Notes under the pieces: model-generated | Database searches by the model: none | The model's input: the letters and a program-made list of their open reading frames with translations, nothing else | What the model was told of the DNA's origin: nothing | Assembly (NCBI GenBank): GCA_005879535.1 | Contig: VBKI01000057.1 | Location: forward strand, 10,951 to 70,984 | Direction of reading: 5' to 3' | DNA length: 60,034 nucleotides | DNA from: Deltaproteobacteria bacterium | GTDB lineage: Bacteria > Myxococcota > Myxococcia > Myxococcales > 40CM-4-68-19 | Translations under genes and position numbers: made by a program | In this document: piece after piece, positions 17,675 to 50,827 of the stretch | Position numbering within the stretch: the stretch's first letter is position 1 | How the letters are laid out: every line of letters begins with the position of its first letter

Positions 17675-19525
17675 CTACTTATCGCGGCTGATCCTCCAGA
17701 TGACACCGGTCTGCGGGATCTGGACGAGCGGGCCGTTGTATCGGCAGGCCGGGTCCGAGGGCACGCAGTTTTCCGGCGCGCTACGGAACCCCGAGCGAGG
17801 ATCGCTCTGGCCGAAGTCGCGCACCGCGCCGTAATCGACGAGGTAGAGCGCGCCGTCGGGGCCGAACATCGCCGTGTTCGGCCGGTTGATCCCGCGCAGC
17901 GCGGGCGTCTCGACGAACGCCTGATCGTAGTCCCCCCTGCAGCGCGGCGTGCCGTCCGGGTCGTGGAACTGATCCGACTGCTTGCAGTTGAACGCGAACC
18001 TCGACTGCTCGAGATGGAAGGGCTCACCGGGCCGGCTGAAGTTCACCACCTCGATGTCGTGTCCCGCCGCGGGTTCACCGTTCTCCTTCGAGAACCCGAA
18101 ATCGCCCTCCCGGGAGACCAGCGAGGCTCCCTTTCGGACGACGCCGAACACGAAGGAGTCGGGGGCGAAGTCGAGGCCGACGGCCGCGACGTCGACGGGC
18201 TCGAGCGCCAGGGGAGCCGTGATCGGCTGCGGTGGGTGCGCGAGGATGGGTTGCACGGGGACATCGCCGGCCGGGGTGTGCGCCGTGACGAGCGAACTGC
18301 ACGCAGGGAACGGCGGATTCGGCGGCTGGCAGAGGTCATCGCCCGGCCCGCCCACCGGGTTGAACACCGCTGAGGTGGAGGCCAGGAAGCCGAACCGGTC
18401 CGGCCAGCCGTGATAGTCCGGGCTGCCGTCGGCGTTCTGCTGGGCGAGCTGGAGCCGATCCGGCGAGTTGTTCGTCGGGCGCGCGCCGCGCTCGTCCTCG
18501 CCGTTCTCGCTGGCGAAGAGCCCGCCCTTGAGCGCGTGATCATTGGGCGCGAAGCGGATGCCGTACGGGTTGCGATAGCCCCACGAGAAGGGCTCGATCG
18601 TGTCCTGCGGCTTCTTGGAGTGGAGCTTCGCTCTGAGAATCGCCCCGTCGCACATGCCGGCGCTCGTGGCGCTGTCGAACGCCTTCACGGTCGCACCGGG
18701 TCGTTGGACGCCGTGGGGTGAATAGCCGCTGGTGCGAACTCCACCGGGCGAGGGGAAAGTATGCTCGCTCAGCACGATGTCCTGACACGGAATGTCCTGC
18801 TGGTTGGCACCACCACCGTTGTCGAGGCCTACCACGCCGGAGTTGGTCGTCGAGCCCTGTGACCAGTAGATCCAGCCGTCCTTGAACTCGAGTTGCTCGG
18901 CGGGATGGTCACCGGTGGGCAGACCGACGATCCACGGGGTGACCGTGTTCGCCTTGAGGTCGACGGTGACGATCCGCGAGCTGTTGTTGTTACCGGACGT
19001 GCGGATGCTCTGGTTGGAGTCGGTCGCGAACAGGCTGCCGCCCTGCGCCTGGTTCTCGAAGGCGATATCGATCGCGGGACCGTCGGCTTGAAAGCCGTTC
19101 CCCGGCCCCGTGGGTTTTGCGAACGGTCCGGAGTTGAAGGTGCCATCCTTGTTCAGCACCAGGATGTCCGGGGTGAACGGATTGGTCGGCGAGAATGGCC
19201 CTCCATAGGCCGGGTCCGTACGGTCGTTGCAGCGGCTGGGCAAGCCGTGTCCCGACTCCAGCACCAGCACCTTGAAGTCGTTCTTGTTACCGGTGAATGC
19301 GATGCCGGTCGGGAAGTTCAGGTCGATCTTGCTGAAGCGCTCGACCTTGTAGCCTTTGGCCACGACGATGTCTTCGCCGTTGCCGGGATTGTAGTTGACC
19401 GTGTTTCCCGTACAGCCGGTGGTGTTGTTGGTTCTCATCTGGGCTTGCGCGGTGGCAGGTAGGAGCGTCGCGATCGAAACGAGCGCGACCAGCATGAACA
19501 GCGTCGCTCGGATTGGGTGATTCAT
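17675..19525 (-). CDS. Secreted PQQ-type sugar dehydrogenase-like beta-propeller protein
   Basis: The 616-residue protein starts with a clear signal peptide (LFMLVALVSIATLL, cleavage near AQA-QM). The start at 19525 is supported by GAGGGAAG about 5 bp upstream. The body resembles the glucose/sorbosone dehydrogenase propeller: GYKVERFSKIDLNFPTGIAF at the first blade, a GYRNPYGIRF motif, ENGEDERGARP, and GPDGALYLVDYG near the end. Members oxidise sugars with PQQ in the periplasm, but many uncharacterised secreted homologues exist and no PQQ genes are seen here. Loops rich in N, G and P are longer than in the basic fold. It stands alone, with 240 bp to the dam gene downstream. Confidence 0.82.
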   Translation of the reverse strand: MNHPIRATLFMLVALVSIATLLPATAQAQMRTNNTTGCTGNTVNYNPGNGEDIVVAKGYKVERFSKIDLNFPTGIAFTGNKNDFKVLVLESGHGLPSRCNDRTDPAYGGPFSPTNPFTPDILVLNKDGTFNSGPFAKPTGPGNGFQADGPAIDIAFENQAQGGSLFATDSNQSIRTSGNNNSSRIVTVDLKANTVTPWIVGLPTGDHPAEQLEFKDGWIYWSQGSTTNSGVVGLDNGGGANQQDIPCQDIVLSEHTFPSPGGVRTSGYSPHGVQRPGATVKAFDSATSAGMCDGAILRAKLHSKKPQDTIEPFSWGYRNPYGIRFAPNDHALKGGLFASENGEDERGARPTNNSPDRLQLAQQNADGSPDYHGWPDRFGFLASTSAVFNPVGGPGDDLCQPPNPPFPACSSLVTAHTPAGDVPVQPILAHPPQPITAPLALEPVDVAAVGLDFAPDSFVFGVVRKGASLVSREGDFGFSKENGEPAAGHDIEVVNFSRPGEPFHLEQSRFAFNCKQSDQFHDPDGTPRCRGDYDQAFVETPALRGINRPNTAMFGPDGALYLVDYGAVRDFGQSDPRSGFRSAPENCVPSDPACRYNGPLVQIPQTGVIWRISRDK

Positions 19526-20483
19526 TGATCTTCCCTCTCTCCAACCGTCAACAGGTTCCTGGGGCGCGCGGATTTGCGGATACGGTTCTGGCGTGCTGCT
19601 GCATCCGATGCGAAACCAACGTGACTGCAACTTGCGCGCATGGAACCGTGGTGCAGGCGCTCCCCGCGCACCTTCTGCGCGCGCACCCGACGGAGGTCAA
19701 GTCCGAGCGCGGCGCAACGGTGAGCCGTTGTGCCGGTCTGCTTGCGCGTCCTGTTGAAGAAGGATGGTCCCAGGGAGCGACGACTCGACTGACTGACTCG
19801 GGGCTCGATGGCTTCTCTGCTCGCCCCTTTGGCAGCTTGCGGGATCGAATGTCCGCGATGCCGCGACGATCGAGAACCGCGCGCGGCATACTCGCCAAAG
19901 CGGGCCGGATCCGCTGCTCGTCAATATTACCGGAGAATAATTCTCGCGCGAGCGGTCCCCTCCCATGCTCCCGCCACAACCTCACTTTGCGCCTGCCTGG
20001 CCCTTCAGCACCTTGCCCAGCGGGCTTCGCCTTCGCGTCGGCGTGTGTCTCGAAGCGATCACTGAGCTCGAAGGTCATCGCCGAGAACCAGCTCTCCATC
20101 GCGGCCGTTGTCGTGGGCGTTGCCGTGACTGCAGGTGATCCCGTGCGAAGGAACAGTCGTCGGGAGCAGGGACGCCGCGCGCGCCTTCTCGCGCGGCTTC
20201 GCGGCGGATGCGGAGAAGTCACATCGTAGCGGGGGGCTGACATGAAATCGGCGCGTGCGCGCAGCATGACAATGTCTGATCTTTCAAGATGCCGCGTGAA
20301 CGAGCGCGTGATGCCCCTCGTGCGGCACCTCGATTGAGCGGACATCGGTAGCGCGCCCGCGGCGCGGACATCGCTGCTCGCGGCGCGTGGCCGAATCCGC
20401 TGATGCGAAGGTCGGGTGCGAGTGACGATTCGCGACGGTGTTGCGCGCCACTTTTCGCCTTGCCGCGGCCCGGACCTTTCCCG
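19526..20483. other. Gene-free stretch of about 960 bp
   Basis: I see no credible gene between the divergent dehydrogenase and bamA genes. Open frames here lack ribosome sites, have Arg/Ser/Pro-biased compositions and show no motif. The stretch holds a perfect palindrome GAGAATAATTCTC at 19933-19945 inside an AT-richer patch, and a GC-only hairpin-prone run near 20177-20195. It should contain the promoter of the dehydrogenase gene. It may also be a decayed gene or a site for an unrecognised regulatory RNA. Confidence 0.6.
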
Positions 20484-32793: not shown

Positions 32794-34152
32794 TCAAGGC
32801 AGTTTCCTCAAGGCGAGAGCGCCGCCGTACGTCGCGACGTAGAGCGTCGGCGGATCGACCATCCGATCCAGCTTGAGCCGGAAAACGTGATCGTCCGGCA
32901 GGTCCCCGCCTGCGCGCAACGCGGTGCGCGCGCCGGTCTGAGGATTCCAGAACACGAGGCCGGTATTGGCTCCGGCGAGCACCAGCCGTCCGTCGGGAAG
33001 CGCCACCATGTCGCGGATGTCGCTCTCGGCCATCCCCGCGTCCTTCTGCGGATCGAAATACCGGAACGACTTGCCGTCCCAGGCGGCGAGCCCGCGGGAA
33101 ACGTCGGAGCTGGTCGTTCGCCCGCTCGCAAACCAGACGCGTCCGTCCGTCGCGACGGCGACAGCTTGCACCGAGATGACGTCGCCCTCCGCCGGCACCA
33201 TGAACACCGGCTGGTTGCAGAAGGCCGAGCCGCAGGGCCCTTTGTACGGGTCGCCGAAGGCGACGCTGAAGATCTCGTTTCCCGGCCGGTTCACCCACCG
33301 GCCGAGATCGGACGTCCAGCGGATCTGCCCGCCGGTCCAACGGCCGCCGACCCAAAGGTTGCCATCGGTCGAGAGCGCCAGCCCTTTCCAGTCGCCGAGC
33401 CGCAGGTTGCTCTCGGAGCTGTCGCAGGCGCGGTGGTAGCAGACCTGCGGATGCAGGTGGTCCGCGAGCCAGTCGTGCGTGGCGGCGAGGAACCACTCGC
33501 CCTGATTTGGGGGGCGGTACTTGTCCGGAAGCACGCGGTCGACGCCGTGGTTGGTGCCGACGTACAGCTCGTGCGGATGCAGGGAATGATCGTAGAGAAG
33601 CCGCTGCACGGTGCGGTTGTGCCAGTACTGCGCGCTGTCGCTGAAGACCAGATCGAAGCGGTCCACCTGCAGCGCTCCGTTCGCGCCCAGCCGGACGCGG
33701 TCGAGCTTGCCGGTGTGCCGGTTCGGATCGCTCCAGTCCGCGCTGCCGTCGTCGGTGCCGAAGTAGCCGACGAAGACCTCGCCCGCGGCCCCGCCCTCGA
33801 TCTCGCTGATGCCCGGGTCCGCGGCGGCGCCGTAGATGGGACATTTGCGGTCGCCACCGGCGATGTCCGCGTCGCAGTACCGGACCGGGTTCCCCTGTAG
33901 ATGCAGCCCGTCACGCGCGTCGAATCGGCGGAACGCGCTCTCCCCGGGCTTCATCACGTAGAGCGCGGCGTGCGTGGCCACCCAGAGGTTCTGCGCCTCG
34001 TCGGTCGTGGCGCCGATCACCGGCCGCTCGAGGATCCCTTGCGCGCCGCCGTACGTCGCGTCGCCGGTGCCCCAGGGACTCGGCCCGCCGAACCGGGAGC
34101 TCGCGCCGCCGCACGCCGCTGCGAGCAGGGCGGCGGCGAGCGCGCGTCTCAA
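32794..34152 (-). CDS. Propeller-type lipoprotein, paralogue of the upstream gene
   Basis: The TTG at 34152 overlaps the upstream stop and gives 452 residues with a lipoprotein-like signal (ALAAALLAAACGG). The mature protein has repeated propeller-blade words of the two-component-regulator type: NLWVATHAALYVM, LSTDGNLWVGGRW, ATDGRVWFASGR, LPDGRLVLAGA. It shares long stretches with its neighbour: RFDxRDGLHLQGNP, DPGISEIxGG, RHTGKLDRVR, WHNRTV, DHxxHxHELYxGT, a DHLHP segment, and a Cys-x4-Cys pair. Many conserved His and Cys suggest metal binding, which is inference. No C-terminal signalling domain is present, so it is a free surface or periplasmic propeller of unknown function. Confidence 0.78.
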   Translation of the reverse strand: MRRALAAALLAAACGGASSRFGGPSPWGTGDATYGGAQGILERPVIGATTDEAQNLWVATHAALYVMKPGESAFRRFDARDGLHLQGNPVRYCDADIAGGDRKCPIYGAAADPGISEIEGGAAGEVFVGYFGTDDGSADWSDPNRHTGKLDRVRLGANGALQVDRFDLVFSDSAQYWHNRTVQRLLYDHSLHPHELYVGTNHGVDRVLPDKYRPPNQGEWFLAATHDWLADHLHPQVCYHRACDSSESNLRLGDWKGLALSTDGNLWVGGRWTGGQIRWTSDLGRWVNRPGNEIFSVAFGDPYKGPCGSAFCNQPVFMVPAEGDVISVQAVAVATDGRVWFASGRTTSSDVSRGLAAWDGKSFRYFDPQKDAGMAESDIRDMVALPDGRLVLAGANTGLVFWNPQTGARTALRAGGDLPDDHVFRLKLDRMVDPPTLYVATYGGALALRKLP

Positions 34153-35819
34153 GGGAGCACTCTCAGCACGGCCGCGCCTCCCCGCGTGGCCACGTGCAGC
34201 GCGGGCGGATTCACCATCGTATCCAGCTCCAGCCCCATGATCTGATCGTCGGGGATTCCCTGGCCCGCGCGAATGGAGACGTGCTTCTTCTTGTCGGGAT
34301 CCCAGATGGTCAGGCCGGTGCTCTGGGAGGCGAGCACGAGGCGCCCGTCGGGCAGCGCGACCATGTCGACGACGTGGTACTCGAGCATTCCGGCGTCGTT
34401 GATCGGGTCGAAGTATTTGAACTTGTGCCCGTCGAACACAGCGAGGCCATAGGCGGGATCGCCACCGAAGGGGCCGCTCGCCCACCAGCTCTTTCCGTCT
34501 GGCGTTTCGGTGACAGCGCTGATGCCCACCGGGTCGCCCGGAGCCGGCGGCCAGAAGACGGGCGGTGTGCCTGACATCGGCGAGCAAGACTGCGTCTGCC
34601 AGGAGCTGCCGTTCCAGACATTGACGATGCCATTCGTGCCGCAGAAGACGTTGCCGAAGGCGTAGCTGAGTCCGGTTTTTTGATCCTTGAAGGCGTCGCC
34701 GCCACGCTGGAACCAACCCGTCTTTCCTTCCGGATCGGGAGTGCCGTCGGCCTTCAACTCCGCGTTGAGCGGCGCGTAGAAGATCTTTCCCGCGCTCCAC
34801 TTCCCACCGACCCAGAGGTCTCCTGCGGCGGACAGGGCGAGGCCGCGCCATTCGCCCATCATCTGCAGGTTCAGGTTCTCATTGTCCGTGCAAAGCTGGT
34901 GCTTGCAGGTCACCGGGTGCAGGTGGTCGGACATCCAGTAGAGGTTGGCGACGAACGGCCAGTTGTCGGGCGGTGGGAAGTAGAGATCGGGAGAGAACTT
35001 CACGACCCCGTGCTCGGTCCCCGCGTACAGCTCGTGCTTGTGGACGAAGTGGTCGTAGACCATCCGGAACACGGTGCGGTTGTGCCAGAACTGCGGGCTG
35101 TTGCCGGACACCATGTCGAAGCGGGCTACGTCCAGGACGATGTTGCCGCTCTTGTCGAGCACCGGATTTCCGCTGGAATCCGTCTTGATGCGGACGCGGT
35201 CGAGCTTGCCGGTGTGGCGGTAGACGTCGAACCACTCGCCGTCGAACGTGAGATCCGCCCAGTTGTGATTGCCCCAGTATCCGACGAAGACTTCGTTCGG
35301 GCCGCCGCCGACGATCTCGCTGATGCCGGGATCCCATGCGGCGCCGTTCCGGCAGCTCTTGTCCCCGCTCGCGAAGTACTGGTCGGCGCAGTATGTGACC
35401 GGGTTGCCCTGGAGATGGAGACCGTCGCGCTCGTCGAATCGGTGGATGGACTTGTCCGGGCGGACCAGGTACAGCGCCGAGTTCGTCGCGATCCAGCGGT
35501 TCTGCGCCACTCCGCCGTCGGTCGTCTGGATCGGCTCGTCCGTCGAGACGCCGACCACCGGCGCCTCCTGGATTCCGTCGGCGAATCCGTAGGTGACGTT
35601 CGCCACTGGCCACGGACCCGGCGTCCCGAAGATCGCGGTCGGTCCCGCATCCGAAGGTCCGGCGTCACCGGCGTCAGGAGGACCGGCATCGGGCGGGCCC
35701 GCGTCGACGCCGCCATCGGGCTTCACCACGATCGGATCCCCGGTTTCCACCACATGGCTCTTCGCGCACGCCCCAACCACCACCGCAGCCGCAAGCGCCC
35801 ACTTCCAGACTTTCGCCAC
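34149..35819 (-). CDS. Propeller-type lipoprotein with Pro-Asp-Ala-Gly linker
   Basis: The GTG at 35819 was chosen because GGGGGGAGG lies 5 bp upstream and a lipoprotein signal follows directly (ALAAAVVVGACAKS). A low-complexity linker (repeats of PPDAG, residues about 37-58), typical of myxobacterial lipoproteins, precedes a propeller of about 490 residues. Blade words include NRWIATNSALYLVRPD, LSAAGDLWVGGKW, ETPDGKSWWASG and LPDGRLVLASQS. It is about 100 residues longer than its downstream paralogue, chiefly from the linker and an extra loop (FCGTNGIVNVWNG). Both genes are coupled by TTGA. Function unknown. Confidence 0.8.
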   Translation of the reverse strand: MAKVWKWALAAAVVVGACAKSHVVETGDPIVVKPDGGVDAGPPDAGPPDAGDAGPSDAGPTAIFGTPGPWPVANVTYGFADGIQEAPVVGVSTDEPIQTTDGGVAQNRWIATNSALYLVRPDKSIHRFDERDGLHLQGNPVTYCADQYFASGDKSCRNGAAWDPGISEIVGGGPNEVFVGYWGNHNWADLTFDGEWFDVYRHTGKLDRVRIKTDSSGNPVLDKSGNIVLDVARFDMVSGNSPQFWHNRTVFRMVYDHFVHKHELYAGTEHGVVKFSPDLYFPPPDNWPFVANLYWMSDHLHPVTCKHQLCTDNENLNLQMMGEWRGLALSAAGDLWVGGKWSAGKIFYAPLNAELKADGTPDPEGKTGWFQRGGDAFKDQKTGLSYAFGNVFCGTNGIVNVWNGSSWQTQSCSPMSGTPPVFWPPAPGDPVGISAVTETPDGKSWWASGPFGGDPAYGLAVFDGHKFKYFDPINDAGMLEYHVVDMVALPDGRLVLASQSTGLTIWDPDKKKHVSIRAGQGIPDDQIMGLELDTMVNPPALHVATRGGAAVLRVLP

Positions 35820-38802: not shown

Positions 38803-39813
38803 TCAACGCCCTGCAGGGACTTTGAAAACCGGCGTCGAATCGAGCGCCTGGCGCACCAGCCGAGCGAGCGCCCGCGCATAGAGGCGGCAGTCGTTGATCG
38901 CGTTCGCGACCTCGTACCGCGCGATGCCGGCCTCTGCCGCGACGCCGCGAAGCAGGATCCGCTGCTCGTGCAGCGTCTCGACGTGATCGGAGACGAACGC
39001 CACCGGAACGACGAGCACCTCCCGCACTCCCTGCCGCGCCAGGCCGGGAATGTGATCGATCGTCGCCGGCTGCAGCCACTTCACCGGACCGACCTTGCTC
39101 TGGTAGCTGAGCGACCACTTCTGCCCCGGCGGCAGCCGCCGGACGACGCCGGCGACGGTTGCGTGGATCTCGCGCTCGTAGGGATCCCCGCGGCGGATCA
39201 GGCTGATCGGCACGCCGTGGGCGCTGAAGAGGACGTGCACGCGCGCAGGGTCGGGAAAGCGCCGCAGCGCGACCTGCACCGTGCTGGTCAGCGCGTCGAG
39301 GTAGCCGGCGTCCTCGGGATATCGATCGACGGCCGCTACGGGCATCGATCCGGCGACTGCCTTGCGCAGATCGAAGAAGGCGGACTCCGTCGTCGCGGAG
39401 CACCATTGCGGATACAGCGATACGCCGACGAGCCGGGTGCACCCATCGGCGCGCGCCCTCGCCACCGCGTCGCGGATGTACGGCGTCCACGCGGAGAAGG
39501 CGACGTAGCAGCGGAACCCCGGACCGAGCTCCTCCTCGAGCTTCCGGGCCTGCGCTTCCGTCAGGGGAAGGATCGGCGAGCGGCCGCCGATCTCGGCGTA
39601 GAGCTGTCGCGCGTGTGGCGCGCGGCGGCGGGCGACTGCGCGCGCGAACCAGCGGCGCAGCGGTCCTTTGAGCAGCGGGATGCGGATGAGGAACGGATCG
39701 CGGAAGAGGTTCTCCAGGTACGGTTCGACCGCGTCGAGCGAGTCCGGGCCGCCCAGGTTCAGCAGCAGGACGCCGGTGTGCGGCGCTGTCGAGGGACGCC
39801 GGAGCGGGATCAC
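38803..39813 (-). CDS. hemH: Ferrochelatase
   Basis: The 336-residue enzyme inserts iron into a porphyrin at the end of haem synthesis. Family motifs are GVLLLNLGGPDSLDAVEPYL at the N-terminus, LFRDPFLIRIP, VLFSAHGVP with the catalytic histidine, SYQSKVGPVKWLQP, and VPVAFVSDHVETLHE. It starts with GTG at 39813. A DUF4142 gene separates it from hemE on the same strand. The spacing (27 bp to the DUF4142 gene, then 78 bp) is compatible with one transcript. Confidence 0.96.
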   Translation of the reverse strand: MIPLRRPSTAPHTGVLLLNLGGPDSLDAVEPYLENLFRDPFLIRIPLLKGPLRRWFARAVARRRAPHARQLYAEIGGRSPILPLTEAQARKLEEELGPGFRCYVAFSAWTPYIRDAVARARADGCTRLVGVSLYPQWCSATTESAFFDLRKAVAGSMPVAAVDRYPEDAGYLDALTSTVQVALRRFPDPARVHVLFSAHGVPISLIRRGDPYEREIHATVAGVVRRLPPGQKWSLSYQSKVGPVKWLQPATIDHIPGLARQGVREVLVVPVAFVSDHVETLHEQRILLRGVAAEAGIARYEVANAINDCRLYARALARLVRQALDSTPVFKVPAGR

Positions 39814-40596: not shown

Positions 40597-41637
40597 TCAG
40601 CGAAGGGGCGTGTGGGCGTGCACCTGCCGGACCAGCGCTTTCACGCTCTCTACCGGCGTCCCAACCATCACACCGTGCCCGAGGTTGAAGACGTGCCCGG
40701 GTCCCGCCTGGTCGGCGAGCTCGAGGACGCGCGCAACGCGCTTCTCCTGCTCGCGCAGAGGCAGGAAGAGCGTCGCGGGATCGAGATTTCCTTGCAGCGC
40801 GACGCCGGGTCCGACCCGCCCGCGCGCTTCATCGAGCGGCACGCGCCAATCCACGCCGACGACGTCCGCGGCCGTCGCCGCGAGCTGCCCCAACAGCTCC
40901 CCGGTCTCGACGCCGAAGACGATCACCGGCTGCGGTTCAGAGCGGTCGCGCTTCAGGCCGGCGATCAGCCGCGCGACGTACGGCGCGCCGAACCTCGCGT
41001 AGTCCTCCGGGCCGAGCGCGCCGGCCCAGGAATCGAAGATCTGCAGGGCGTGCGCTCCCGCCGCGAGCTGCGCGTTGAGGTACGCGATCAGCGCGTCGGT
41101 GATCTTGCCCAGCAGCGTGTGCGCCAGCTTCTCGTCGGAGAAGATCGCCGCCTTCGCCTTCTCGAAGCCGCGCGAGGTCTTCCCCTCGATCATGTAGGCG
41201 GCCAGCGTCCAAGGCGCGCCGCAGAATCCGATCACCGGGACGCGGCCTCTGAGCGCCTTCAGGGTCCGGCGGATCGCCTCCATCACGAAGCCGAGCTTCT
41301 CCTCGGGGTCGGGCACGCGGAGCTTCTCGACGTCGGCCTGCGTCCCCAGCGGAGAGGGAAACTGCGGCCCCTGATCCTCCAGGATCAGCTCCATTCCCAT
41401 CGCCTCGCAGAGCACGAGGATGTCGCTGAAGAGGATTGCGGCGTCGACCCCCAGGATGTCGACCGGCTGCAGCGTCACTTCCGCCGCCAGGTCCGGCGTC
41501 TTGCACAGCTCGAGGAAAGAGACCTTCGCGCGGACGGCCCGATACTCCGGCAGGTAACGCCCCGCCTGGCGCATCAACCAGATCGGCGTCTTGTCGACGG
41601 GACGCCGGCGGCAGGCATCGAGGAAACGATGCGACAC
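40597..41637 (-). CDS. hemE: Uroporphyrinogen decarboxylase
   Basis: The 346-residue enzyme converts uroporphyrinogen III to coproporphyrinogen III. Diagnostic motifs are the N-terminal PIWLMRQAGRYLPEYR, then AAILFSDILVLCEAMGM with the essential aspartate, VIGFCGAPWTLAAYMIEG, QIFDSWAGALGPEDY, and GVDWRVPLDEAR. It starts with GTG at 41637. The diadenylate cyclase gene ends 21 bp upstream on the same strand, so both may be co-transcribed. Confidence 0.97.
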   Translation of the reverse strand: MSHRFLDACRRRPVDKTPIWLMRQAGRYLPEYRAVRAKVSFLELCKTPDLAAEVTLQPVDILGVDAAILFSDILVLCEAMGMELILEDQGPQFPSPLGTQADVEKLRVPDPEEKLGFVMEAIRRTLKALRGRVPVIGFCGAPWTLAAYMIEGKTSRGFEKAKAAIFSDEKLAHTLLGKITDALIAYLNAQLAAGAHALQIFDSWAGALGPEDYARFGAPYVARLIAGLKRDRSEPQPVIVFGVETGELLGQLAATAADVVGVDWRVPLDEARGRVGPGVALQGNLDPATLFLPLREQEKRVARVLELADQAGPGHVFNLGHGVMVGTPVESVKALVRQVHAHTPLR

Positions 41638-43070: not shown

Positions 43071-44288
43071 CTACGCCTGCGCCGTCACATTGTGCTGGCC
43101 GGGGCCGCCAGTAATCCGCCGCGGCGCAATCGCGCAGCTCGCTTCCGTGTACTCCGGCAGCAGCTCCCGCATCGGATGATCCCCGCACGAGGGGCAATTC
43201 GGGTCCCGCGCGTACTTCACTTCGCGGAACTTCTGCTCGAGCGCGTCGTATAGGAGCAGCCTGCCGACCAGAGGCTCGCCCTTGCCGAGCACCAGCTTCA
43301 CCGCTTCGACTGCCTGCACCAGCCCGATGATCCCCGGCAGCACGCCGAGGACACCGGCTTCCTGGCATGAGGGCGCGAGCTCCGGCGGCGGCGGCTCGGG
43401 GAAGAGGCAGCGATAGCACGGCCTTCCTCCGCCGGGGATGAACGTCGTCGCCTGTCCGTCGAAGCGGAAGATCGACCCGTGGACGTTGGGCTTCCCAAGG
43501 AGGACGCAGGCGTCGTTCACCAGATAGCGCGTCCCGAAGTTGTCCGAGCCGTCGACGATCACGTCGTACTTGGAGAACAGCTCGAGCGCGTTGTCGCGGG
43601 TCAGCCGCGTCCGGTGCTCGTCGACCGCGACGTCCGGGTTGAGCGCCTGCAACGTCTTCCGCGCCGACTCCGTCTTCGGCATCCCCACGCGATCGGTCGT
43701 GTGCAGGATCTGGCGCTGCAAGTTGGATTCATCGACGACGTCGTCGTCGACGATTCCCAGCCGCCCGACTCCCGCCGCCGCGAGATAGAGCGCGGTGGGC
43801 GAACCGAGACCGCCGGCGCCGATGAGCAGGACCTTCGCCTTGAGAAGCCTGGCCTGTCCTGCCTCGCCGACTTCAGGGATGAGCAGATGGCGGCTGTAGC
43901 GCGCGCGCTGCGCATCGGTGAGCCGCACCGGCGTCTCCAGCGGCAGGCCGGCGTCCTTCCACGCCGAGAACCCACCCGCCATGCTGCGCACGCGGGTGTA
44001 TCCCATCTCCGCGAGCGTCTTCGCCGCCAGCAGCGAGCGGGTGCCGCCGGCGCAATAGAGGACCACGTCCGCGCCGCGGTCCGGCACCGTCTCTTCGATG
44101 CGCAGCTCGAGGTACCCGCGCGGAACGTGCTTGGCCCCCGGCAACATGCCGGCGTCGGTCTCCTGCTTCTCGCGGACGTCCAGGATGACCGGCTTGGGCG
44201 ACTGGCGCGACAGCTCGAGGGGCTGGACTTCCGGCACCCGCGAGCGCGCGTCCTTGAGCAACTCCGATTTCGTCTTCATGGGCGACAT
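43071..44288 (-). CDS. moeB: Rhodanese-ThiF/MoeB fusion: sulfur-carrier adenylyltransferase/sulfurtransferase
   Basis: The 405-residue protein has an N-terminal rhodanese domain (about residues 20-120) whose active loop is VVLYCAGGTRSLLAA with the sulfur-accepting cysteine. A ThiF/E1 domain follows: RYSRHLLIPEVGEAGQARL, VLLIGAGGLGSPTALYLAAAGVG for ATP, VDESNLQRQILH, VIVDGSDNFGTRYLVND. Zinc Cys pairs are CYRC and CPSC. It adenylates and probably thiolates the C-terminal Gly-Gly of MoaD/ThiS-like carriers for molybdopterin or thiamine. The usual fusion order is MoeB then rhodanese, so the reversed order is notable. A second ATG three codons in (44279) is an alternative start. Confidence 0.92.
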   Translation of the reverse strand: MSPMKTKSELLKDARSRVPEVQPLELSRQSPKPVILDVREKQETDAGMLPGAKHVPRGYLELRIEETVPDRGADVVLYCAGGTRSLLAAKTLAEMGYTRVRSMAGGFSAWKDAGLPLETPVRLTDAQRARYSRHLLIPEVGEAGQARLLKAKVLLIGAGGLGSPTALYLAAAGVGRLGIVDDDVVDESNLQRQILHTTDRVGMPKTESARKTLQALNPDVAVDEHRTRLTRDNALELFSKYDVIVDGSDNFGTRYLVNDACVLLGKPNVHGSIFRFDGQATTFIPGGGRPCYRCLFPEPPPPELAPSCQEAGVLGVLPGIIGLVQAVEAVKLVLGKGEPLVGRLLLYDALEQKFREVKYARDPNCPSCGDHPMRELLPEYTEASCAIAPRRITGGPGQHNVTAQA

Positions 44289-44298
44289 CTTAGCTCAC

Positions 44299-44345
44299 TG
44301 TGCAGCGCGTCAAGCCGGGCTTGTCCGGTACCGGACGACTGCACA
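44299..44345. promoter_or_regulatory. Nested inverted repeats between moeB and the flippase gene
   Basis: Outer arms TGTGCAG (44299-44305) and CTGCACA (44339-44345) enclose two adjacent perfect palindromes: CAAGCC-G-GGCTTG (44311-44323) and TCCGGTACCGGA (44324-44335). As RNA or cruciform DNA this would be a compact three-way junction; as DNA the palindromes could be operators. It lies in the 79-bp divergent region and ends 22 bp before the flippase ATG. Confidence 0.5.
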
Positions 44346-44367
44346 TCGTGTTCCACACGGAGGGGGG

Positions 44368-45840
44368 ATGCACGACAGGCCGCATGGTTCCATCCTGCGA
44401 CGCGCCGGACCGTTGATGCTCGCCCGGCTGGGGGTCGCGGCGCTGACCTTCGCCATCCCTCTGGTGCTGGCGCGGGTGCTGCTGCCGGAGAGCTATGGGA
44501 CGTTCAAGCAGGCGTGGCTCCTCTCGAACACGCTCTTTCTCGTGTTGCCGCTGGGGCTCAACCAGAGCCTCGTCTACTTCGTCCCCCGCGAGCCCGGAAA
44601 GAAGCGCCTCTGGCAGTCGCACGCGTTGATCCTCACGACGGTCCTGGGGGCGGTCGCCGCCGCCCTGCTGCTGGGCTTCGGACCGCTCGTCGCCTCGGCG
44701 TTTCACAACCCCGAGCTGGCGGCCGTGATGCCGTACGTCGCCGCCTTCACGGCCTTCAAGCTGGCGGCGTCCTGCTTCGATCTGGCCTGGATGGCGGAAG
44801 GACGCATCAAGGCGAGCGCCATCGTACGGGTCGCGTCGGAAGGCTTCTATACCGCGTGCATGCTCGCAGGAGCGGTGTGGACGCGCAGCGTGGAAGGCGC
44901 GTTCGCTGGGGTGGTGATCGCCACGTTCGCCAAGGCGGCGGCCTGCTGGATGGCGCTTTCCGCCGGCGGCCTGCGCATCTCGCCGCGTGAACTCCGCCGC
45001 CAGCTCGCCTACGCGCTCCCGTTCGGCGCTGCCTTCGCGCTGATCATTCCGCAGCAGCAGTTCCACAGCTATCTGGTAAGCGCGAGCGTGACGGCGGCGG
45101 CGTTCGCCGTGTACGCGGTCGGCTGTTTCCAGCTGCCGGTCGTCGACATGCTCTATACGCCGGTCTCCGAAATCCTCCAGCTCGGGATCGCGGAGCACGA
45201 GGCCAAGGGCGACAACGAAGGCGCGCTCCGCCTGTTCCGGGAGGCGGTGGCCCGGCTGTCATTCGTATTCGTGCCCACCATGGTGCTCCTGGCCATCTCC
45301 GCACCGACGCTGATCAGCTTCCTCTTCACCGATCGATACCTCGCGGCGGTCCCCGTCTTCCGGCTGTCGATCATCTCCATCCCCATGGCGGCGCTCCCGC
45401 TCGACGGGGTCATGCGGGCGTGTGCCCAGAACAAGTTCATGTTCCGCATCAGCGTCCTGAAGCTGGGATTGACGGTGCCTCTGGCGTGGCTCGGGTTCCA
45501 CGCGTTGGGTCCCATCGGCGCGCTGGGCGGCTGGATCTGCGCCGAGGAGACGTGCAGGTTCCTGCTCCTGCGCCGTGCGGCCCATCTCTTCGGCACCACC
45601 ATCCTGGGCGCGCTGCCGCGGGAGCTCTGGTGCCAAACTGCGGCGGCCGTCCTCGCCGCGGTGCCGGGCGCCGTTGCGCTGCATCTGGCGGGTGGACCGC
45701 TTCTGGTCCAGTTGTGCACCGGTGGAATCGTCTTCGCCGTCGCCTACCTGGCGATCCTTCGCGCCCTGGGCGTGCTTCCGCCGGTGCGCGCGTGGATTCC
45801 GCAGAAGGCGCCCCTCGTCCTCATCCGCGAGGCGGCCTGA
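44368..45840 (+). CDS. wzx: Wzx-type polysaccharide flippase (MATE/MOP superfamily)
   Basis: The 490-residue protein has about 12-14 membrane segments and a typical Wzx start: GPLMLARLGVAALTFAIPLVLARVLLPESYGTFKQAW. A central PFGAAFALIIPQQQFHSYLVS and a late VFRLSIISIPMAALPLDGVM follow. The ATG at 44368 directly follows GGAGGGGGG, so earlier starts in the open frame are rejected. It would flip lipid-linked oligosaccharide units across the inner membrane. The next gene, a GT4 glycosyltransferase, overlaps its stop by one base; a Wzy-like gene is 3.7 kb downstream. Confidence 0.87.
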   Translation: MHDRPHGSILRRAGPLMLARLGVAALTFAIPLVLARVLLPESYGTFKQAWLLSNTLFLVLPLGLNQSLVYFVPREPGKKRLWQSHALILTTVLGAVAAALLLGFGPLVASAFHNPELAAVMPYVAAFTAFKLAASCFDLAWMAEGRIKASAIVRVASEGFYTACMLAGAVWTRSVEGAFAGVVIATFAKAAACWMALSAGGLRISPRELRRQLAYALPFGAAFALIIPQQQFHSYLVSASVTAAAFAVYAVGCFQLPVVDMLYTPVSEILQLGIAEHEAKGDNEGALRLFREAVARLSFVFVPTMVLLAISAPTLISFLFTDRYLAAVPVFRLSIISIPMAALPLDGVMRACAQNKFMFRISVLKLGLTVPLAWLGFHALGPIGALGGWICAEETCRFLLLRRAAHLFGTTILGALPRELWCQTAAAVLAAVPGAVALHLAGGPLLVQLCTGGIVFAVAYLAILRALGVLPPVRAWIPQKAPLVLIREAA

Positions 45841-47282: not shown

Positions 47283-49103
47283 CTATGCCGTCCGGCGGCG
47301 CCGGAAGACGAACAGCGCGAGGACGGGCACCGCCAGCCAGAGCGACTGCATGCCGGTGGTCGAGCATCCGCCACTGTTGGAGTTGGCGTCCAGCGTCGTC
47401 ACGACCGGGTCGCTGCTGCAGGCGGTGGTGCCGCACGCGTTCTCCGCGCCCTTTCCGAGCGCGTGCAGGATCAGCGCGGCCAGCTCGGCGCGGGCGCTGT
47501 CCAAAGCCGCGGCGCTCGCCGTCGCCTGGTACGTCTTGGGGAACACGCCCGCCGCGATGGCCTTCGCCTGGGCGCCGACGCCGAGCGTCTTCGCCAGGTT
47601 CATCAGCTCGTAGTCCTCCATGCCGTCGCGGATGCCCTTCAGGCGGAGCGACTCCACCGGGATCTCCGTCTGGCCGCCGATCTTCGCGGGCGTGCCCGGG
47701 TAGAAGAGCGTTCCGTCGCCCGTGCCGCCGAACGCGCTCTGGCTCACCCACGGGTCGCCGTTGTTGAAGTACGACATGGTGACCTCGTAGTAGAGCTCGC
47801 CGGTCATGTCGTAGGTGAACGACATCCACTCCATGGCCCGGTTACGGGTGGCGTCGGAGTCGACCGCGTACGTGGGCCAGCCGGTCTCGCCGGAGCCGTC
47901 CAGGCCGCCGCCGACGCCGCTGCAGCCGAACGACATACAGCTCTGGTACCACCAGGTGTTCGCTCCGAACTTCGCGCGCTGGTTGCCGGCCTGAGCGCTG
48001 CCCGGCTTGCCTTCCACGTAGTTGACCACCGGGACGAACAGGTCGATGCCGCTGACGCCGTGGCTCTGCGCGTCCCACGTCGTGGTGGTGACCAGCGTGG
48101 GCATGCTCGAGTCGCCGGCGCGGACCTGCGAGACGCGGCCGGGGATGTCCGACCACTGGCAGGTGAGGGGCGGCTCGTCGCAGACGTAGTCGAACAGCGT
48201 CGTCGAGGTCCAACCCTTGCTCTTGAAGTGGTTCGACCAGGCCTTCACCACCGCCGCCGTCGTCGCGCCGTTCACGCTGACGGAGGTCAGCTTGGCGCCC
48301 TTCAGGCGGGTGTCGGCCGTGCCGTCCAGGAACGGGCTGACGTACTGATCGAAGATTCCCCAGTTCTCGTTGCCGGAGCTGTCCACCGTCGAGGTGAAGT
48401 ACGGCTGGTGGATCGAGACGTGGTTGTCGAGCGCCGCCTGCACGTAGCGCGCGCGCAGCCGGTGATCGGAGTCGCCGCCGCCGCAGCTCCCGTCGCCGTG
48501 ACCGATGCAGGGGCCGTTCCACGCCATGCCGAACGCCGTGCGCAACGTCGAGGTGGATGGCACCTCGAAGTCCCACACCGCCAGCTCGACGCGCACGTCC
48601 TGCGTCACGCCGCCGGTCACGTGCAGCGTGCCCGTGTACTTGCCGGCCGGCGTCGCCTGCGGAGCGTGCACGTCGACGAGGACCGCGCGGCTCTCGTTCG
48701 CCGGAACGCTGAAGGGGAACGCGTTGCGCTTCTCGCCCGCGATCGGATCGACGTCCGGGACCAGCGCGTCCGGCCACATGCCCGTCGCGCCGTCGCCGCC
48801 GGACTGCGCCGTCACGTTCAGCAGCGCCTCGCGGTAGAGGACCACGTCACGCCCGGAGATGGTGTGTCCGGCGCTGTCGCGGAGGGCGTCAAGGCTCATC
48901 GAGACGCTGTCGGCCTGGCCGGTGACGACCACCTGGAATGCTTCGAATTCGTTCTTCGCGGCGGCGATCTTCGCGGCTGCGGTGGCGCCGGCCGGGGGCT
49001 GCGCGCTGGGGCGGATCTTCTGCGCGGCCGGCGCGACCCAGACCTGGGCGGCGGATGCGGAACCGGCGGCGAGCAAAGCGACGAACAGGGGGAGCGACTT
49101 CAC
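47283..49103 (-). CDS. Secreted DUF4091 glycoside-hydrolase-like protein with MYXO-CTERM-like tail
   Basis: The GTG at 49103 (AAGGAGG 5 bp upstream) gives 606 residues with a signal peptide (LFVALLAAGSASA). The N-terminal beta-domain of about 170 residues leads to a large alpha/beta region and the DUF4091 hallmark SLRLKGIRDGMEDYELM. Catalytic-type acidic clusters (DYVCDEPP, YAVDSD) fit a TIM-barrel hydrolase, although no activity is proven. The C-terminus has NSGGCSTTG, one membrane helix (LWLAVPVLALFVF) and RRRR. This resembles the MYXO-CTERM sorting signal of myxobacteria, where the cysteine is lipidated and the protein displayed on the surface. It is oriented against the polysaccharide genes that surround it. 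Confidence 0.84.
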   Translation of the reverse strand: MKSLPLFVALLAAGSASAAQVWVAPAAQKIRPSAQPPAGATAAAKIAAAKNEFEAFQVVVTGQADSVSMSLDALRDSAGHTISGRDVVLYREALLNVTAQSGGDGATGMWPDALVPDVDPIAGEKRNAFPFSVPANESRAVLVDVHAPQATPAGKYTGTLHVTGGVTQDVRVELAVWDFEVPSTSTLRTAFGMAWNGPCIGHGDGSCGGGDSDHRLRARYVQAALDNHVSIHQPYFTSTVDSSGNENWGIFDQYVSPFLDGTADTRLKGAKLTSVSVNGATTAAVVKAWSNHFKSKGWTSTTLFDYVCDEPPLTCQWSDIPGRVSQVRAGDSSMPTLVTTTTWDAQSHGVSGIDLFVPVVNYVEGKPGSAQAGNQRAKFGANTWWYQSCMSFGCSGVGGGLDGSGETGWPTYAVDSDATRNRAMEWMSFTYDMTGELYYEVTMSYFNNGDPWVSQSAFGGTGDGTLFYPGTPAKIGGQTEIPVESLRLKGIRDGMEDYELMNLAKTLGVGAQAKAIAAGVFPKTYQATASAAALDSARAELAALILHALGKGAENACGTTACSSDPVVTTLDANSNSGGCSTTGMQSLWLAVPVLALFVFRRRRTA

Positions 49104-49549
49104 GGAGCCTCCTTGGTTGGCTGCTTCCCGGAACGGCGGGGGTTCCTCGTTCCGGCTGGCCAACTCAGGGGGCTTGCCGCTTATTGCACGTCAGGTGTGC
49201 TGCTCCATGCCCAAAGCAGGGCGATTCTCGGGTGGGCGGGGACTGGTGAGCACGTGTGCCTACAGGGCGGCACCTCTGCTGCTGCGCAGAGCACAGCGAG
49301 CGTATCGCGTCTGAATCGCGACCTGCGCCGGTTTCGTCGGACTTCAGGCGGTGGAGCGGTTCTGGCCTCGTGGAGCAGGCGGGGGAGCAGGCGCCACTCC
49401 GTTCGCCAGCTCGACGACACGAAGCGTCACCGCGAGGGGCTCCTCTCCGTCCGCGGGAGCGCATTGCGCCCTGCCTGGAGACGTCTCGTACCGGACGCTT
49501 CCGGCGTCCTTTACCAAACGCTGCCGGGGGTCGTCGGAGCGGCCGGGCG
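49104..49549. other. Divergent intergenic region, no gene seen
   Basis: This 446-bp stretch lies between the starts of the DUF4091 gene and the polymerase/ligase gene and should contain both promoters. I find no convincing sigma-70 pair and no small gene with a ribosome site. It is GC-rich, with many CGGTGGAGC/GGAGCAGGC-like G-rich words around 49350-49410. Confidence 0.5.
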
Positions 49550-50827
49550 ATGCATAGGTTGGCCGGCGTGCAGACCGCAACGTTGCAGGGCGTTCCCGAG
49601 GTCGCGGCGCGCAGGTGGCAAGCGGAAAAGGCGGCCCAGCTCGCCTTCTTCGCGACCGCGCTGTTCGCCGCCCAGCTCTATCTCTCGCCGGCCAGTTGGT
49701 TTCCGGTGCTCGAGCCGCTGCATCACGCGGCGATCCTCTCGGTGGTGGGGCTCGCTGCGCTCTTCTTGCGGCGCGTGCTCACCAACCGGCCGATCTGGAT
49801 GGGATGGCGGACGGCGCTTCTGGCGGTCTACGCCGGCGCGGCGGTGCTCTCGCCGATGTGGTCGATCTCGCCCGCGGCCTCGACGGCGGGCGCGCTCGAG
49901 GTGGTCAAGCACTTCCTCTTCTTCCTGGCGGTCGCGAACGCGATTGACACACCCCGCCGGCTCCGCATCGCGCTCGGGATGTACGCCCTGGCGGCAATCG
50001 TGCCGGGGTGGGGCACTTTCAACAACTGGATCCACGACGAGCTCCTGGTGGACGGGTTCCGCGGCCGCTGGCTCGGGGTGCTCGGCGATCCGAACCACGA
50101 CTCGATGGCGCTGGTCGGCGCGCTTCCCCTCCTGCTCTTCTTCATCATCGGTCGCGGGCACAAGTGGCCGCTGCGCATCGTGGCGGCGGTGGGCTCCGCG
50201 GGGTGCATCGCCGGGATCATCGCCACCCACTCGCGCGGCGGTTCGATCGGGCTCGCCGCCGTCGTGGTGATGTTCGCGCTGCTCTCGCGCCGCAAAGCGC
50301 TGGCGGCGGTCGCGGTGATGATCGCGGCGGCGGGAATGATGCTGTTCGCGCCGGCGAGCTTCTGGCAACGGAACGAGACCACCGCGCTGGGCGCGGAGGA
50401 CCTCTCCATCGAGGGACGGCTGCAGGCATGGCAGGTGGCGGAACGCGCCTTCCAGGAGCGGCCGCTGCTGGGTGTGGGCGAGAGCGCCTTCCTCGACGCG
50501 TGGAACCAGTACGCGCCCATCGACTCGAATCGGGTGTTCGGGCACCGGTACGTGGCCCACAACCTCGTGCTCGAGGTCCTCGCCCAGCTCGGTGTGATTG
50601 GCCTCTTCGGCCTGCTGGGCTTCATCTTCGCTTGTCTCTGGTCGGCGTGGAGCGCGCGAAACGGCGAGCTGGGGGGCGAGGCGCGCGCGGTGCTCGCCGC
50701 CTTGCTCGGCTATCTCATCTGCCAGATGTTCTCCGGCTACTCGACGAGCTGGTTCCTGTACGCGCTCTGCGGCTTCGCGACGTGCTGCCAGGCGTGGGCG
50801 ACGCGGCAGCCGCAGGAGACGGTGTGA
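49550..50827 (+). CDS. wzy: O-antigen polymerase/ligase (Wzy/WaaL family)
   Basis: The 425-residue protein has about eleven membrane segments and a long periplasmic loop before the last ones. The Wzy_C signature is present: GRWLGVLGDPNHDSMALVGA, IIATHSRGGSIGLAAVVV, LQAWQVAERAFQERPLLGVGE, and HNLVLEVLAQLGVIGLFGLL. The ATG at 49550 has a CGGAG upstream; a GTG at 49568 is the alternative. It polymerises or ligates repeat units delivered by the flippase. Wzy and WaaL cannot be told apart by sequence alone. Its stop overlaps the next GT4 gene. Confidence 0.87.
   Translation: MHRLAGVQTATLQGVPEVAARRWQAEKAAQLAFFATALFAAQLYLSPASWFPVLEPLHHAAILSVVGLAALFLRRVLTNRPIWMGWRTALLAVYAGAAVLSPMWSISPAASTAGALEVVKHFLFFLAVANAIDTPRRLRIALGMYALAAIVPGWGTFNNWIHDELLVDGFRGRWLGVLGDPNHDSMALVGALPLLLFFIIGRGHKWPLRIVAAVGSAGCIAGIIATHSRGGSIGLAAVVVMFALLSRRKALAAVAVMIAAAGMMLFAPASFWQRNETTALGAEDLSIEGRLQAWQVAERAFQERPLLGVGESAFLDAWNQYAPIDSNRVFGHRYVAHNLVLEVLAQLGVIGLFGLLGFIFACLWSAWSARNGELGGEARAVLAALLGYLICQMFSGYSTSWFLYALCGFATCCQAWATRQPQETV

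Follow-up and report, generated by a model that had tools for sequence, protein, structure and literature searches.

Overlapping genes for two predicted propeller lipoproteins with a constant three-histidine blade in a genome of the Myxococcales

Introduction

Genes A and B are two overlapping genes in a 60,034-nucleotide stretch of DNA from Deltaproteobacteria bacterium (assembly GCA_005879535.1, contig VBKI01000057.1, positions 10,951 to 70,984 of the forward strand; order Myxococcales). This whole stretch is referred to below as the window. The two genes encode paralogous lipoproteins, each predicted to fold as a single seven-bladed propeller. We tentatively propose, while regarding the proposal in its full form as doubtful, that A, B and their relatives are founding members of a so far unnamed family of surface propellers that bind metal, in which a three-histidine site in blade 3 (HG...[DE]HxHP) captures or processes a metal-dependent ligand, and of which a third paralogue stands beside an EamA permease. 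The evidence consists of a small set of residues that is constant in all proteins aligned, the predicted fold that places them, and the spread and gene context of the propellers.

Results

The gene pair

The pair and its main features are as follows (positions in the window).

34149-35819, minus strand: gene A, GTG start, 556 aa; predicted lipoprotein with an Asp/Pro/Gly-rich linker and one predicted seven-bladed propeller
32794-34152, minus strand: gene B, TTG start, 452 aa; predicted lipoprotein with one predicted seven-bladed propeller
34149-34152, minus strand: four-base overlap TTGA of the A stop (TGA) and the B start
35766-35768, minus strand: putative lipidated Cys of A in lipobox VGAC, flagged by the script rule and seen by eye
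34111-34113, minus strand: putative lipidated Cys of B in lipobox AAAC, seen by eye; the script rule did not flag B

In both proteins an N-terminal hydrophobic stretch ends in a lipobox cysteine, as in bacterial lipoproteins (by pattern rule or eye, with the lipobox pattern in its generally known form). A and B are 46% identical over 502 columns (BLASTP, E 3e-135) and have in common RFDxRDGLHLQGNP, DPGISEI, RHTGKLDRVR, WHNRTV, HxHELYxGT, DHLHP and a Cys-x4-Cys pair, so that every motif quoted in the original prediction for this DNA, made from the sequence alone, was found in both. That prediction had described paralogous lipoprotein propellers of an unnamed family, and the identity, the lipobox cysteines and the predicted fold all support this description. 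It had also stated that the proteins lack a signalling domain; this holds in the Pfam and NCBIfam scans of A and B, which returned no kinase, regulator or other signalling domain. Reg_prop (PF07494) was detected in B only, at 24.1 bits against a Pfam gathering cut-off of 20.4, and A matched no Pfam family at E up to 1. Sub-threshold matches only, and no NCBIfam family above its cut-off, were obtained for A, B and ten relatives. The stop/start overlap points to translational coupling, and A and B are probably made together from one message.

Predicted fold and structural relatives

Models were built from the proteins of the window and of loci L006-L009 only (nine sequences). The modelled parts comprise 432 residues of B and 493 of A, both reaching the C-terminus, with a mean predicted local distance difference test score (pLDDT) of 80.7 and a predicted template modelling score (pTM) of 0.87 for B, and of 73.7 and 0.81 for A. 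The strands of B were divided by us into seven blades, the last of which is closed by a strand at residues 12-14. In both models, the last propeller strand stops 4 residues short of the C-terminus.

The sensor domain of BT4663 is the first Foldseek match of both models (E 6.5e-12 for B, 7.2e-12 for A), and PorZ holds rank 18 for B. With VIA-align, the best Z was 27.6, to a WD40 propeller (rmsd 2.7, 281 residues aligned), many rows being tied. A profile search of solved sequences returned 4a2l (E 7.1e-16) and 3v9f (E 3.9e-11), and a single-sequence search with A matched no solved structure. Neither nitrous oxide reductase nor BtuG nor a propeller enzyme is among the fold matches listed, which sensor and WD40 rows fill, so that none of the three is excluded. 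As far as the models go, the fold and profile matches speak for a propeller and for kinship to the Reg_prop sensors, not for a function.

A constant set of residues in blades 2 and 3

Residues are numbered as in the B model, residue 1 being the F of FGGPSPW. Conservation was counted in an alignment of 43 proteins, which includes A, B and two members cut by contig ends, and in 12 distant homologues, which belong to families f1, f3, f4 and f8 and match the family profile at E 1e-25 to 1e-38; a 13th match, a fragment ending before the site, was left out. The residues of most concern are listed here with their predicted positions in the fold (all on the minus strand).

33547-33549: H182 of B (NHG, b-c turn of blade 3, entry face); in A, H207 at 35010-35012
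33451-33459: H212-L-H214 of B (DHLHP, end of strand d, blade 3); in A, H236-L-H238 at 34917-34925
33763-33765: Y110 of B (VFVGY, end of strand b, blade 2); in A, Y118 at 35277-35279
33619-33621: H158 of B (WHNR, just before strand a, blade 3); in A, H183 at 35082-35084
33424-33441: C218-x4-C223 of B, a probable disulfide; in A, C242-x4-C247 at 34890-34907

Y110, D168, H182, D211, H212 and H214 are invariant (43/43). Four of them, Y110, H182, H212 and H214, are also present in 12/12 distant homologues and hence in 55/55 proteins overall, and by these alignments Y110, H182 and H212-x-H214 are the deep core of the family. D211 is replaced by Glu in 10 of the distant homologues. Position 158 is His in 28 and Glu in 15 of the 43 proteins, and Glu in eight and His in one of the 12, where its alignment is uncertain; such a Glu/His exchange suits a ligand or metal residue. 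The remaining histidines are kept to very different degrees. Among the 43 proteins, H169 is present in 42, H64 in 40, H172 in 39, H126 in 37, H174 in 23 and H220 in 21; in the distant homologues, His occurs at position 64 in four, at 169 in three, at 172 in one and at 126 in none. The conserved His/Cys sites of the original prediction are thus upheld for H182, H212 and H214, which are invariant, and are unequal elsewhere, as the counts at positions 158, 174 and 220 illustrate.

C218 is present in 39 and C223 in 36 of the 43 proteins. In three more rows (f9) the second Cys is shifted by one place towards the first; the pair thus occurs in 39/43, and both cysteines are missing from the same four. 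Cys is found at position 218 in one distant homologue and at 223 in none. C73 (25/43) and C84 (26/43) behave as a second pair, the rows listed with C84 being those of the A, B and B-like types and of the single-copy f6/f4 group. The pair C218/C223 is kept or lost jointly, in the manner of a disulfide.

Faces were assigned from the predicted strand order, the d-a and b-c connections lying on one face in such propellers. By this predicted topology, H64, Y110, H126, H158, H182, H214, C218 and C223 are on the entry face, and H169, H172 and H174 on the opposite one. The core residues would lie on or near the entry face of blades 2 and 3.

Two other explanations of this site bear directly on these residues. 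The propeller may be a structural or scaffold protein, with the His and Asp residues in a hydrogen-bond network that holds blade 3 and the long loops while the protein docks envelope proteins. HG...[DE]HxHP is confined to one blade and accompanied by constant Gly and Trp, and the closest folds by Z are WD40 propellers, both of which fit a scaffold. The structural tetrad of WD40 proteins, however, recurs in several blades, unlike the three His of A and B, which occur in one blade only and at loop or strand ends; we consider a scaffold rather unlikely. Alternatively, A and B may be metal-dependent surface enzymes, the three-His site of blade 3 binding a divalent metal and, together with Y110 and E/H158, cleaving a sugar or peptide polymer in the manner of a lyase or hydrolase. 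Some propeller lyases work in such a way. By topology, three constant His and a constant Tyr fall at or close to one face, with a Glu/His exchange beside them, and this would be in keeping with catalysis. Against this stand the lack of any propeller enzyme family among the sequence and fold matches listed (which, filled with WD40 propellers, do not exclude one) and of a polymer-degradation locus directly beside A/B, and the enzyme is in our judgement unlikely.

Spread of the family and occurrence of the pair

A profile of 20 members was run on 195 genomes of the phylum, and 88 matched at E 1e-20 or better. These split into 33 genomes with a best E below 1e-100, all of which belong to the window's own order, and 55 genomes with a best E of about 1e-21 to 1e-30. 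In a re-search of 28 genomes, none of the 14 outside the order (0/14) matched at 1e-10. The named genome collection contributed five loci from one scan with B alone, so that spread beyond the phylum is poorly tested by it. One strong-match genome (L009) is from an Anaeromyxobacter sp., and family f6 is taken as Anaeromyxobacteraceae on that ground only. B had no match in 72,556 plasmid records, which lends no support to spread by plasmids.

Pairing was examined in 12 genomes of the window's family (G000-G011, G000 being the window genome). A complete A-B tandem lies on one contig in five of these, with a stop/start overlap in every case: TTGA in G000, ATGA in G001 and GTGA in G004, G006 and G007. 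Because the NTGA overlap recurs in 5/5 genomes with three different start codons, and 43 proteins align over the domain, chance is excluded as its origin. In G005 (L010, G005:C191) the B copy is reduced to approximately its first 80 and last 55 residues, by assembly collapse or by a real deletion. A contig end splits the pair in G010, where the tail of an A gene is upstream of a B-like gene; G008 has the two types on separate contigs, part of the common neighbourhood surrounding the B-like one; and in G002 only A was found. No strong match was obtained in G003 (61% complete), G009 or G011. There was no tandem among the matches outside the window's family, where G015 has two copies on different contigs. 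The A-B pair is old but not obligatory, and the question raised with the original prediction, whether the two genes always occur as a pair, is answered in the negative by the missing tandems outside the family.

A tree was inferred for 43 proteins, A, B and two copies cut by contig ends included. The broken copy of G005, G080, the fragmentary G032 and repeat reads of one gene are not on it, nor is G010:C29, whose type came from BLAST. The A type (8 rows) and the B type (5 rows) each form a clade with support 100/99. The f6 group, joined by two f4 rows, is a clade of 14 rows (95/96), and the third paralogue type, C, is one of 6 rows (100/100), G000:C3 among them; a further clade consists of two B-like rows of genus g3. 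The branching order of the A, B and single-copy clades is not settled by the tree. The dN/dS ratio was 0.14 (G006), 0.28 (G004) and 0.23 (G007) for B, and 0.39, 0.46 and 0.48 for A in the same order. By these ratios B is more constrained than A and changes more slowly. A and B are old duplicates.

Larger distant propeller homologues (L066, L067, L071-L075 and L077, and also L068 and L076) share the motif [GH]REK[LVI]C, located ahead of strand a in blade 3, and retain EHxHP. The homologues with [GH]REK[LVI]C apparently represent a sister family, and no Pfam model of its own was found among the seven distant ones scanned. Fusion of the propeller to a larger protein was considered for two open frames of 1204 aa (L042) and 1267 aa (L048), which are 53% identical, and was rejected: their first 600-700 codons are antisense-like, with the first position the most G+C rich.

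The third paralogue and the EamA permease

The C-type gene is present in seven genomes of the family, in G000, G001, G002, G004 and G008 according to the tree and in G010 and, as two fragments, G005 according to BLAST. The window genome carries it on another contig (G000 contig C3; L039 10736-13054, minus strand), with a co-directional EamA permease gene 49 bases downstream. An EamA permease gene is located at most 3.2 kb from the C-type gene in 7/7 genomes, and directly downstream on the same strand in five (G000, G001, G004, G005 and G010). It was not found in G003 and G006. In f6, the permease is encoded in 9/11 genomes searched. In six of the nine, all of one genus, about 3.3 kb separate it from the single propeller gene; in the other three, two of which are of that same genus, it is not so placed. 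This arrangement weakly suggests a link of the C type with small-molecule transport.

Genomic neighbourhood

Genes other than A and B were called by script. The neighbours of the propeller genes were surveyed by gene clustering around 28 sources (the window and 27 loci) and by Pfam scans of seven proteins of the window locus, A and B among them, and then of 10, 10 and 6 neighbours. A HAD acid phosphatase-like gene is divergent from A and a TPR protein gene convergent on B; farther out are genes for an amino acid permease, ferrochelatase, uroporphyrinogen decarboxylase and a fused amino acid ABC transporter with ATPase. Much of this gene order recurs in the other family genomes read, some of them without the TPR gene, and several also carry a nucleobase permease and a Ppx/GppA phosphatase. 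We read the recurring order as inherited synteny, not as a pathway. The clustering and the Pfam scans did not reveal a partner for metal, haem or electron transfer that the family shares.

Several neighbours were seen at individual loci. In the window, the genes for ferrochelatase (38803-39813, minus strand) and uroporphyrinogen decarboxylase (40597-41637, minus strand) are a few kb from A; both also occur in L030, and ferrochelatase in L006. A DsbA-like gene adjoins the single propeller gene in L035 and L036 and is one gene beyond it in L037 and L038 (f6, one genus; three of the four DsbA genes were scanned), the intervening gene in the latter two, directly after the propeller, encoding a chemoreceptor. 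A haem-oxygenase-like gene is two genes from the C-type propeller in L049. In two loci of one genus (L045 7017-10788 and L046 2136-6025), two genes are directly upstream of the single propeller gene on the same strand: one for a receiver-histidine kinase, which stands two genes from the propeller, and one of 286-287 aa, whose L045 copy matched no Pfam family. A two-component partner of the propellers was rejected, as the receiver-kinase neighbours of L045 and L046 and the chemoreceptor neighbours of L037 and L038 did not appear in the other sources of the clustering.

The original prediction had allowed for a metal- or redox-binding surface system. In a redox role, the Cys-x4-Cys pair and the histidines would carry electrons, haem or copper at the surface. 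The Cys and His are near each other in idealised geometry, haem-synthesis genes occur at the distances given above in the window (with ferrochelatase again in L006 and L030), and the DsbA-like gene of L035-L038 and the haem-oxygenase-like gene of L049 might be added in its favour. Neither A nor B contains the haem motif CxxCH in its sequence, however; other genes lie between A and the haem genes, which were seen near A in three loci only; and the Cys pair, absent from four of 43 proteins, is nearly gone in the 12 distant homologues and looks like a disulfide. As for the DsbA-like neighbour in the four genomes of one genus, disulfide formation accounts for it better than electron transfer. The redox idea thus finds little support, and we consider it very improbable.

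Two further regions of the window were recorded. A polysaccharide locus at 47283-49163 (minus strand), 44098-45840 (plus strand) and 49256-50827 (plus strand) comprises a gene for a GH123-like glycosidase beside genes for a polysaccharide flippase-like and an O-antigen ligase-like protein. A 651-aa open frame at 17675-19630 (minus strand) has a coding-like base pattern and matches no Pfam family.

Discussion

Of the roles considered for A and B, the capture or sensing of a small ligand is the most likely, at somewhat less than an even chance. The two proteins would be stand-alone Reg_prop-type propellers, probably anchored in the outer membrane, which capture or sense the ligand on the entry face of the propeller. 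The site would lie in blades 2-3, with H182, H212, H214 and Y110 around it and E/H158 beside it, and a metal ion may be bound there. A and B may have different ligands, or may be partners of each other.

An outer-membrane location is suggested because a lipobox was flagged by the script rule in 29/36 rows, A among them, and none of these (0/29) has Lys or Asp at +2. The +7 residue is Val in A and Arg in B. In Myxococcus xanthus lipoproteins, Lys at +2 goes with the inner membrane and Ala at +7 with the extracellular matrix (PMC3222651). Ligand binding is favoured by the kinship to glycan sensors, by the constant residues towards the entry face and by the usual binding side of propellers: most known ones bind ligands or carry out catalysis on the entry side, close to the central shaft, where BT4663 binds disaccharides (PMC5121618). 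Three constant His and the nearby His/Glu exchange make a metal in the three-His site a sensible guess, to which we attach low confidence.

Several observations weigh against the proposed ligand and metal site. Conserved His in propellers can be purely structural. H212 is placed by the predicted topology at mid-height, just below the entry face, and the pLDDT around the site is low, averaging 53, 58 and 50 in blocks 151-160, 201-210 and 211-220 of B. In idealised geometry from the predicted strands, H158, H182, H212 and H214 have a mean spacing of 11.1 Å against 21.7 at random, and 0.8% of random sets of four from 70 conserved positions are as tight; this set was picked after the topology had been seen, and its clustering rests on strand order and idealised geometry. 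Taken together, nine His/Cys (64, 126, 169, 172, 182, 212, 214, 218 and 223) have a spacing of 19.0 against 21.7, and 9.5% of random sets are as tight, which is not significant. The clustering expected of the conserved His/Cys by the original prediction is therefore supported for H182, H212 and H214 with Y110, on or near one face by the predicted topology, and is not significant for the whole set, which is split over two faces. As to the gene context, three genomes, G009, G011 and G007 (whose copy has an internal stop), encode the EamA permease but have no C-type gene, no EamA gene is beside A/B, and the transport genes near A/B are conserved in one family only and do not form one operon with A/B.

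Ligand capture by A and B can be compared with three known systems. The Bacteroides hybrid two-component sensors have Reg_prop-type blades in common with A/B, and BT4663 (4a2l) is the best solved relative by both profile and Foldseek; its ligand site is on the entry face, and the same would be expected for A/B. Sensors of the BT4663 type have two propellers, a Y_Y_Y domain and a transmembrane histidine kinase (PMC5121618), whereas A and B are single-propeller lipoproteins: they have no kinase or regulator domain, one propeller in the models, and no arrangement of two propellers with Y_Y_Y. PorZ is, like A/B, a surface protein of Reg_prop-like propellers without a kinase (PMC5121618), but it has two propellers and a C-terminal secretion domain. 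The NCBIfam PorZ model gave no row for A/B up to E 10, in a scan whose filters remove most matches above 0.1, and in the A and B models only 4 residues follow the last propeller strand; neither gives a sign of membership in PorZ or the type IX secretion system (T9SS). BtuG, which captures vitamin B12, resembles A/B in its way of working only, being a seven-bladed propeller and surface lipoprotein that holds its ligand on one face at the central cavity (PMC10404256). BtuG2 is in an operon with the BtuB2 transporter (PMC10404256), whereas no BtuB-type or other TonB-dependent transporter adjoins A/B, whose neighbours are the TPR protein and HAD phosphatase-like genes.

No paper was recognised as treating the A/B family among the titles and abstract openings of the literature searched. 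What is new here is that kinase-free Reg_prop propellers, a kind already known, have a three-His blade that is constant and an old duplication with coupled genes. Propellers of that kind are, to our knowledge, common in bacterial genomes, but few have a known function. The constant site of the A/B family could be removed by three point mutations, and the propeller occurs as a single copy in Anaeromyxobacteraceae-like genomes and as a coupled pair in their relatives. Anaeromyxobacteraceae has cultured members. The A/B family would thus offer a clean route to learning what kinase-free propellers bind, and whether a metal is involved.

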